The notes beneath the pieces were generated by a model. It saw only the letters and a program-made list of their open reading frames with translations, had not been told where the DNA came from and did no database searches. This document shows positions 35,908 through 38,419 of a stretch of 64,000 nt of DNA, in pieces (positions within the stretch are counted from its first letter, which is position 1; every line of letters starts with the position of its first letter). The DNA lies in NCBI RefSeq assembly GCF_024266705.1, contig NZ_CP100756.1, positions 1,984,001 through 2,048,000 of the forward strand, read 5' to 3'. A program made the translations under genes and the position numbers. The DNA is from Natrinema gelatinilyticum (GTDB taxonomy: Archaea > Halobacteriota > Halobacteria > Halobacteriales > Natrialbaceae).

Positions 35908-36468
35908 CTACTCGGTGTCCCGACGCATGGCAATCTCGAACCACGGGCAGAGCCGAAGCTGGCGGTACCATTCCGGGTGCGCGTCGAGTCGATCGTACGG
36001 GACCCACATCAGCCCTGCGACCTCCGTTTCGTCGGGCTCGAGACTCCGATCGGACAGCGTTAGCTTGAGGACGGCACAGACCTCGTGTTCGACGCCCTCG
36101 TTTTCGAAGTAGCGCTTGTACTCGAAGCGGTCGGTCAACCGCAGGTCGTCGTACTGATCGGGCGTGATCCCGAGTTCCTCCTCGAGTCGCTCGCGGGTCG
36201 CCTCCTCTTGACTCTGCCCCTCGACGGGGTGGGACGCGACGGTGCCGTCCCAGAAGGTCCCCCAGAGACGCTTGTCGGGCGCGCGCTGGGCGAGTAAGAT
36301 GTTTCCCTCGCCATCGAAGACGAGCGAGGTGAACGCGCGGTGGCGAATCCCGTCGCCGGTGTGGGCTTCGAGCCGATTGACGAGGTCGAGTTCGGTATCG
36401 TCGGCGTCGACGGCGATCACGTCCTGTCTCGCGTTCTCGTGTTCTATGTCCTCCTGGGGTGTACTCAT
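35908..36468 (-). CDS. idi: Type I isopentenyl-diphosphate isomerase homologue lacking the catalytic Cys
   Basis: From the ATG at 36468 the protein has 186 residues and aligns along the type I isomerase fold (Nudix superfamily). The metal ligands of the E. coli enzyme have counterparts: H36 (AHTGDG), H43 (RHRAF), H80 (SHP), E127 and E129 (VEHEVC). The catalytic cysteine, in the NSVCGHP motif of the bacterial enzyme, is replaced by alanine (GTVASHP, A78). It may use another acid, or be a Nudix-type hydrolase. Its genes on both sides are unrelated. The frame upstream to 36666 is not similar to the family. Confidence 0.75.
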   Translation of the reverse strand: MSTPQEDIEHENARQDVIAVDADDTELDLVNRLEAHTGDGIRHRAFTSLVFDGEGNILLAQRAPDKRLWGTFWDGTVASHPVEGQSQEEATRERLEEELGITPDQYDDLRLTDRFEYKRYFENEGVEHEVCAVLKLTLSDRSLEPDETEVAGLMWVPYDRLDAHPEWYRQLRLCPWFEIAMRRDTE

Positions 36469-36709: not shown

Positions 36710-37657
36710 CTACAGCAATCCGTCGTCCGGATCGGGTTGATAGCCCTCCCCGACGGCGGTCCTGAGCGTCCGCGGATTCGTCTCGACCGTCAGGGATTCG
36801 GTTTCGAGCATCTCCCCGTCGAGACTGTACTCGACGGAGTCCCGCCTGCTCTCGATCACGAGCGACGGCGTTCGCCGGCGAACGATGTGGTCGCTATCGC
36901 GTCCGAACAGTTTCTGCATGGCTGCACCACCGAGCAGGTTCAACGCCGCGGCATCCTCGACGATCGTCACCTCGAGCAGGCCGTCCTCCACGTCGGCCTG
37001 CGCCGTTCGCGCGCCCGTGAACCGTCGACAATTCCCGATGAGGACGAACATGGCCCGTCCTTCCCACGCCCGGGTCCGTTCCCCGTTCGGCCCTTGTTCC
37101 GTCTCGACCCGGAGCGGGAGCGAGTCGAACGAGCCCATCGTCTTGAGCGTGTTCTTGACGTACGCGAGAACGCCCAGGTTCGCCTTACTCTCCGGGGTCG
37201 TGTTACTGCTCGCCTCGGCGGTGATGCCGCCGACGCAGGAGTTGAGGAAGATCCGGTCGTTCGCAATTCCGACATCGATCGACCGCCGTCTCCCCTCCTC
37301 CATCACCGAAAACGCGTGTTCGATCCCCTGGACGCCGATGTTCGTCGCAAAGTTGTTTCCCGTTCCCGCCGGGACCACGGCGAAGGTCGTCGTTTCGAGT
37401 GCATCCGCGGCCGCGAGTCCGTTGACCACGGCGTTTACCGTGCCGTCGCCGCCGACTGCGGCGACGAGGTCCGCGGTGGGGGCGACGTCGCGAGCGATTC
37501 TGTTTGCGTCACCGCCTTCCTCGGTTTTTCGAATCCTGAACCCGTGTTCGGTCCCTAATGCGACGACGTCGTCGACGTGGTCCTCGCTACCACTCACGGG
37601 ATTGAGGACGATCACGCGGTCGTCACTCTGACCGTCTGTCGACCCCTCCGATTGCAT
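36710..37657 (-). CDS. Diacylglycerol/lipid kinase family protein
   Basis: From the ATG at 37657 the protein has 315 residues. It begins with RVIVLNPVSGS, has the nucleotide loop AAVGGDGTVNAVVNG, then VVPAGTGNNFATNIG. The C-terminal half is the beta-sandwich of DagK/YegS proteins (DGLLEVTIVEDAA, SLDGEMLETESL). Such enzymes phosphorylate diacylglycerol, sphingoid bases or, in archaea, isoprenoid lipids. Substrate is undecided. The gene lies head to head with the PHP-domain gene, sharing a short promoter gap. Confidence 0.88.
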   Translation of the reverse strand: MQSEGSTDGQSDDRVIVLNPVSGSEDHVDDVVALGTEHGFRIRKTEEGGDANRIARDVAPTADLVAAVGGDGTVNAVVNGLAAADALETTTFAVVPAGTGNNFATNIGVQGIEHAFSVMEEGRRRSIDVGIANDRIFLNSCVGGITAEASSNTTPESKANLGVLAYVKNTLKTMGSFDSLPLRVETEQGPNGERTRAWEGRAMFVLIGNCRRFTGARTAQADVEDGLLEVTIVEDAAALNLLGGAAMQKLFGRDSDHIVRRRTPSLVIESRRDSVEYSLDGEMLETESLTVETNPRTLRTAVGEGYQPDPDDGLL

Positions 37658-37711
37658 GGCATGGGAAACGCCGGCCGAGGACAAAAGAGTCTGGCCGGCG
37701 TATGCGTTTCT

Positions 37712-38419
37712 GTGTATCGCGTCGACCTCCATACACACACGCGATTCTTCCACGGACACCGAGCGATCGGCGATCGGTTCGACCCCGTCGGCGTCCGCCT
37801 GCTCACAGAGATGGCCGACCGGCGCAGTCTCGACGGGGTCGTGACGACCAATCACGATTACTACACGGCGTTCGACCCGTCTCCGGACGTCGAAACGTTG
37901 CCCGGGATCGAGATCACGACGGACCGCGGCCACGTTCTCGTGGTCGGGCCCGACCCGCCCGCGGCGACGAAGCCTGGTGCCCTCTCTCCCCGCGAGGCGG
38001 TCGCGCTAGCACACGACCGCGGCTGTGCTGCCATCGTCGCGCACCCGTTTCGAAACAGCTCGGTCCGGGAACTCGATGACGTCCCGTTCGACGCGATCGA
38101 GGTCAACGGCAAACACCCCCGATCGAGACCGCTCGTCGAGGAACTGGCGGAAGACCGCGACCTGCCGCTCGTCGGCGGCAGTGACGCGCACTATCCGTTC
38201 GAGGTGGGGCGAGCGTATACCGTCATCGAGGCCGATCGGCTCACGCCCGAGGGGATCGTCGACGCGATCCGCGACGGTCGCGTGAGTGCGCGCGTCCACC
38301 GATCGTGGTACGATCGGTTGCTACGCAAAGGCTACCGGACCATCCACGACCGCAAGCGGGTCATCGACGCGCTCGAGCGGCCGACGCCCGGCGTCGGACG
38401 GCCACCGGGCGAGGACTGA
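37712..38419 (+). CDS. PHP-domain phosphoesterase
   Basis: From the GTG at 37712 the protein has 235 residues. The PHP metal motifs are clear: YRVDLHTHTRFFHG at the start, VTTNHDYY, PGIEITTDRGHVLV, AIVAHPF and GGSDAHYP. It is a metal-dependent phosphoesterase of unknown substrate, similar to the archaeal RNase/nucleotide PHP proteins. GTG is the only usable start close to the first motif. It is divergent from the lipid kinase gene. Confidence 0.88.
   Translation: MYRVDLHTHTRFFHGHRAIGDRFDPVGVRLLTEMADRRSLDGVVTTNHDYYTAFDPSPDVETLPGIEITTDRGHVLVVGPDPPAATKPGALSPREAVALAHDRGCAAIVAHPFRNSSVRELDDVPFDAIEVNGKHPRSRPLVEELAEDRDLPLVGGSDAHYPFEVGRAYTVIEADRLTPEGIVDAIRDGRVSARVHRSWYDRLLRKGYRTIHDRKRVIDALERPTPGVGRPPGED

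Follow-up and report, generated by a model that had tools for sequence, protein, structure and literature searches.

An alanine-type homologue of isopentenyl diphosphate isomerase in haloarchaea, with a candidate relocated cysteine

Introduction

Isopentenyl diphosphate (IPP) isomerase primes the synthesis of isoprenoid chains, and the membranes of archaea are made of isoprenoids. As the mechanism of the type I enzyme (IDI1) is taught, a Cys/Glu pair acts on opposite faces of the substrate. The catalytic Cys is essential in the bacterial enzyme, in which the other active-site residues of the Escherichia coli protein (Idi) likewise have assigned roles, and both the E. coli C67A and the yeast Cys139 mutants are inactive though the Glu is kept, that of E. 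coli despite the presence of Cys118. A description of the active pocket of the yeast enzyme lists His-93, His-104, Cys-139, Glu-205 and Glu-207, with Cys-139 and Glu-207 protonating and deprotonating IPP and with Lys-89, Arg-123 and Lys-127 binding the phosphates (PMC5925831, which cites work by Street et al. 1994 on Cys139 and Glu207). Archaeal IDI1 genes have been held most likely to reflect transfer from bacteria (PMC3533463), and HVO_2506, IdiA, has been named as the isomerase of Haloferax volcanii in a passage that gives no assay (PMC13358004, 2026). A search of open-access papers, with subscription papers mostly outside its scope, found no report of the Ala substitution and no activity measurement on a type I enzyme from haloarchaea.

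The protein described here belongs to a natural type I family that lacks the Cys. This family occurs in 289 of the 292 haloarchaeal genomes surveyed, and 207 of them have no other recognisable isomerase. Annotation by overall similarity, as with idiA of Haloferax volcanii, hides the changed active site. Either a catalytic residue now sits at another place in the conserved fold, or a single acid/base of the protein is enough for the reaction.

The gene and its product

The window, the whole 64,000-nucleotide stretch of DNA that was analysed, encodes on its minus strand, at positions 35908-36468, an isopentenyl diphosphate isomerase homologue of 186 aa, designated P0001. Translation of this interval shows the coordinates given in the initial annotation, which named no strand, to be correct. 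The reading frame sits inside a 252-aa ORF, and a start at 36468 agrees with homologues, which align from residue 1. P0001 matches both family models of the type I isomerase, TIGR02150 with E = 1e-26 and NF002995 with E = 6.7e-33, and in each case scores below the curated cut-off (93.7 bits against 105.8, and 113.9 bits against 127).

Alignment to E. coli Idi by phmmer is gapless to residue 98 and pairs H36, H43, A78, H80 and E98 with residues 25, 32, 67, 69 and 87, and a multiple alignment pairs Y117, E127, E129, C174 and W176 with residues 104, 114, 116, 159 and 161. By these alignments all five IDI1 metal ligands are present, as had been claimed from the sequence alone: H36 (E. coli His25; codon at 36361-36363, minus strand as are all codons given here), H43 (His32; 36340-36342), H80 (His69; 36229-36231), E127 (Glu114; 36088-36090) and E129 (Glu116; 36082-36084), the last of which is also the presumed proton-transfer residue from its role in IDI1. 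The accompanying claim of Ala in place of the catalytic Cys also holds: within the motif W73-D74-G75-T76-V77-A78-S79-H80-P81 it is A78 (codon GCG, 36235-36237) that aligns to E. coli Cys67. The other IDI1 active-site residues Glu87, Tyr104 and Trp161 are kept as E98, Y117 and W176 (codon at 35941-35943) and are identical across all rows compared. P0001 thus has in common with the type I enzyme of E. coli the fold, the three His and two Glu ligands, Glu87, Tyr104, Glu116, Trp161 and the phosphate-binding Lys/Arg positions, and differs from it in the Ala for the catalytic Cys, in an Asp-Gly for the Thr-Asn just before, in a Cys for the Ser/Thr ahead of the Trp, and in its scores under the curated cut-offs. 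P0001 should work like IDI1, yet it fails both cut-offs and a defining feature of the family, the catalytic Cys; the rest of its predicted active site is isomerase-like.

The closest sequence match to P0001 in the PDB is 1ow2/1q54, an E. coli Idi chain that carries Ala at position 67, a laboratory variant of the Cys enzyme that is inactive. It has Ala at the same site as P0001 but Ser, not Cys, at position 159, as in the E. coli rows. The predicted model of P0001 has a mean pLDDT of 83.2, falling to about 70 in the blocks covering residues 161-180. E. coli and human IDI occupy ranks 1 to 12 in a Foldseek search with this model, and residues 15-186 superimpose on residues 4-173 of 1hx3 with Z 17.1 and rmsd 2.9 over 166 aligned residues, which places the whole chain in the IDI1 fold.

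Occurrence in the haloarchaea and comparison with bacteria

A homologue of P0001 was found at E<=0.001 in 289 of the 292 genomes of the class, and an exact DNA pattern for W-D-G-T-V-A-x-H-P occurred in 289 genomes, the same ones; the reversed control pattern had no match in class genomes among the matches listed. Both homologue and pattern are missing from G021, G218 and G286. The occurrence of the WDGTVA motif is far beyond chance, and, judged from these sequences, the exchange of Cys for Ala at position 78 is universal in the class sample (289 of 289 homologue-bearing genomes). The initial annotation had proposed an alignment of haloarchaeal relatives; it had noted neither that the Ala extends to the class as a whole nor that C174 is invariant. 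A sequencing error or a local pseudogene is ruled out by the identity of the motif in 289 of 292 genomes.

All 181 homologue loci compared (31 + 40 + 80 + 30, several being the same gene fetched twice) contain WDGTVASHP, and they yield 156 distinct proteins. The filter that defined this collection required W, HP and WDGTVA, so that W73-A78, H80 and P81 are constant by construction, and further required H-x-A and E-x-E, which touch H43, E127 and E129 in part, but not the Cys positions; it dropped none of the 181 loci. The set of 40 was itself retrieved mostly by pattern coordinates, so that what tests the Ala independently is the agreement between the homologue search and the DNA pattern. The set of 80 was drawn from 423 relatives found, and its carriers include Natrinema, Haloterrigena, Natronorubrum, Halorussus, Halorhabdus, Haladaptatus and Halobaculum. 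In a sample of 246 genomes from the phylum, 42 are hit by the haloarchaeal profile at E<=1e-8, and every one belongs to the order of the source organism or is closer; 204 have no match, and the 20 listed among these are G021 and 19 genomes from elsewhere in the phylum. Two scans of viral contigs found no relatives.

At the level of residues the comparison was with bacteria only, represented by 25 Idi1 genes hand-picked from two overlapping lists of 92 and 116 records. Ten residues, H36, H43, K66, H80, R94, E98, Y117, E127, E129 and W176, equivalent to E. coli H25, H32, K55, H69, R83, E87, Y104, E114, E116 and W161, are identical in the 156 haloarchaeal and 25 bacterial rows, and W73 and R62 each differ in one bacterial row. 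Around the altered site the haloarchaeal proteins have Ala at position 78 against Cys in 25 of 25 bacteria, Gly at position 75 against Asn in 25 of 25, and at position 74 an acidic residue specific to the class, D74 (codon at 36247-36249; E. coli Thr63), against Thr in 11, Ser in 7 and Ala in 7. Divergent Idi1 genes of the Cys type were seen on E. coli plasmids (L082, L206), immediately behind a gene that is annotated 'class 1 isoprenoid biosynthesis enzyme'.

Sources of DMAPP

Whether P0001 is the isomerase of its organism can be approached from what else the genome encodes. A mevalonate kinase (262 bits) is encoded in the source genome (completeness 99.99%, contamination 5.73%), together with three polyprenyl synthases, so that DMAPP is needed. 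The P0001 gene is its single type I family match at E<=1, which disposes of a second type I isomerase with the usual Cys. The initial annotation had also suggested looking elsewhere in the genome for a type II isomerase, an FMN enzyme of an unrelated family (TIGR02151) presumed to catalyse the same reaction as P0001. That search found none over the TIGR02151 cut-off of 281, the top matches reaching 28 and 22 bits, and P0001 itself has no match to the model at E<=1. These two matches, considered as diverged type II enzymes, proved to be an FMN-dependent protein of the L-lactate oxidase/dehydrogenase type (260 bits, under the cut-off of that model) and an IMP dehydrogenase (592 bits, over its cut-off). 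IspH would yield DMAPP directly, and it was found in none of the 292 class genomes at E<=1e-10, which rules out DMAPP by way of the MEP pathway.

Across the class a type II isomerase scores over the cut-off in 85 of 292 genomes, with G041, where the match is weak and partial (74.9 bits), counted as without. By subtraction, 82 genomes have both proteins, 207 the Ala protein alone, 3 the type II enzyme alone, and none has neither. In 207 of 292 genomes, the source genome included, the Ala protein is therefore the only source of DMAPP among the three known families searched, and on these grounds it most likely functions as an isomerase. The type II enzyme is patchy within genera (12 of 17 genomes in the genus of the source organism, 2 of 4 in g18 and 1 of 4 in g19) while the Ala protein does not vary, a distribution to be expected if that protein is enough by itself. 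Type II is present in each of the three genomes that lack the Ala protein, a pattern with a chance of 0.024 if the two were independent; it is suggestive only, two of the three sharing a family and one being only 89% complete. Two matches to P0001 were seen only in G239 and G185; the second in G239 is L221, taken up below, and the family model gives a single match in G185. The control genome of Haloferax volcanii has a type I match and is not among the control genomes listed for type II at 1e-20. Type II genes reach three copies per genome (G214) and are often missing from close relatives.

From this distribution and the residues retained, we consider it likely that P0001 is a working IPP:DMAPP isomerase, metal-dependent, with the Nudix fold and built on type I lines, that lacks the canonical catalytic Cys, and it is probably the only isomerase of the source haloarchaeon.

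Comparison with Nudix hydrolases

The competing view is that P0001 is not an isomerase but a Nudix-type hydrolase, acting for example on IPP to give isopentenyl phosphate in opposition to isopentenyl phosphate kinase, and that an enzyme of unrecognised type isomerises IPP in the 207 genomes. Plant NUDX1 and NUDX3 do act on IPP, and several features of P0001 lend themselves to such a reading. Its scores under both curated isomerase cut-offs count against an isomerase. So does its phylogeny: in a midpoint-rooted FastTree tree of 21 haloarchaeal proteins (a subset) and 25 bacterial ones the haloarchaeal sequences make up a single clade (support 0.54) whose stem is very long, about 2 substitutions per site, as a change of function might leave it. 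Nor does the fold separate isomerase from hydrolase, since YfcD, a putative Nudix hydrolase that shares the Nudix fold, aligns to the P0001 model with Z 16.8, less than 1 Z unit from the 17.1 of IDI.

The second match in G239, the haloarchaeal protein L221 (G239:C11:86639-86914 with flanks), is instructive on both sides of this question. At its Cys67 site this Idi-like Nudix protein reads VDTSAAGHY, and it has D74, A78 and H80 in common with P0001; because both A78 and D74 recur in this hydrolase-like protein, the hydrolase alternative keeps some probability. L221 differs from P0001 at H36 (V), Y117 (V), E127 (N), C131 (Q), C174 (I) and W176 (a gap), so that among the missing residues are Y117, E127 and W176, isomerase residues that P0001 keeps. 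P0001 scores 34 bits against L221; with three bacterial isomerases its scores are 63 to 83 bits. The two proteins part most clearly at the Nudix hydrolase box, given as GX5EX7REUXEEXGU (PMC5389931). L221 has it intact, as GES followed by RELREELG, whereas in P0001 it is broken, with S79, Q85, E93 and R94 standing for G, E, R and E and with E97, E98 and G100 kept. The R-E pair is reversed in the P0001 box, and at position 94 all 156 haloarchaeal and all 25 bacterial rows carry Arg. A hydrolase would, moreover, leave the 207 genomes without a DMAPP source, and on balance we regard this alternative as improbable. The initial annotation had offered two readings, that some other residue serves as the acid or that the protein carries out another Nudix-type reaction; the first is favoured here, and the second is disfavoured since the hydrolase box is broken as it is in isomerases. 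As a separate observation, L221 reaches 66 bits with NF002995, an isomerase model whose cut-off is 127, and a loose annotation could call it an isomerase.

Replacement of the catalytic cysteine

If P0001 is an isomerase, much of its chemistry can be modelled on that of IDI1. The metal would be held by H36, H43, H80, E127 and E129, the diphosphate would be bound through Mg2+ and R32, R62, K66 and R94, and a tertiary carbocation at C3 would lie near W176, with E129 and Y117 on one face. The role of the second proton-transfer group, played by Cys67 in E. coli, has then to be filled in some other way, and two Cys residues come into consideration. Only the columns of C131 and C174 are always Cys in the haloarchaeal proteins (156 of 156 each), the next Cys column reaching 32 of 156, and 107 of the 156 proteins have exactly two Cys when counted from about residue 9 to the end, the N-terminus excluded.

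C174 (codon TGC, 35947-35949) occupies the position of E. coli Ser159, which is Ser in 15 and Thr in 10 of the 25 bacteria. In the predicted model the last helix spans residues 175-185, which puts C174 at its N-cap, two residues before W176, and at a helix N-cap the pKa of a thiol is expected to be lowered. The invariance of C174 is in itself weak evidence, given that it is one of 12 positions (nearly) invariant in the haloarchaea and never so occupied in bacteria (70 haloarchaeal and 17 bacterial rows), and that one alignment of 45 close rows shows no variation at 79 of 186 positions; the poverty of these proteins in Cys is what makes C174 stand out among the class-specific changes. One plausible explanation, which we advance tentatively as possible rather than probable, is that in the haloarchaeal class the acid/base role of the thiol has moved from the Cys67 site to C174, beside the active-site Trp, with the type I fold kept. 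Were this so, an entire archaeal class would run an obligatory C5 isomerisation without the canonical catalytic Cys, its thiol having moved within the fold.

The main mechanistic rival to relocation to C174 is that E129 acts alone. If C174 were out of reach of the substrate, E129, the counterpart of E. coli Glu116, would both protonate C4 and deprotonate C2 with the help of Y117 and the metal or a bound water, in a suprafacial reaction that uses no thiol and a single protein acid/base. Such a mechanism requires no assumption about the orientation of C174, and it fits with the inability of A78 to transfer protons and with the invariance of E129, Y117, E127 and W176 in all rows. It leaves unexplained, however, two invariant Cys in proteins mostly without any other, as well as the change from Ser/Thr to Cys at position 174, and it sits poorly with the inactivity of the E. 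coli C67A and yeast Cys139 mutants, in which the Glu is retained. We think this mechanism unlikely, though by no means negligible.

The thiol might instead come from C131 (codon at 36076-36078), at the position of E. coli Cys118. A strand is predicted for residues 125-138, along which E127, E129 and C131 would by alternation lie on one face, and C131 is as constant as C174 in the haloarchaea. Cys is also found there, however, in 9 of the 25 bacterial enzymes, E. coli included, that keep the normal catalytic Cys, and E. coli C67A is inactive in spite of Cys118; C131 as the sole replacement is accordingly improbable in our estimation. Relocation to C174 is the reading we prefer among the mechanisms considered here.

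Genomic neighbourhood

The genes around P0001 are not informative about its function. A regulator of the Lrp/AsnC family, absent from the window, is encoded close to the isomerase gene in 46 of the 61 loci compared (for example L076:3364-3774). Within the window the neighbours include a gene for a GT4 glycosyltransferase and, directly upstream of the isomerase gene at 36713-37732 on the minus strand, a gene for a lipid kinase of the YegS/diacylglycerol-kinase (DAGK) type, and 20 of the 61 loci, the window among them, have an ORF related to this one close to the isomerase gene.
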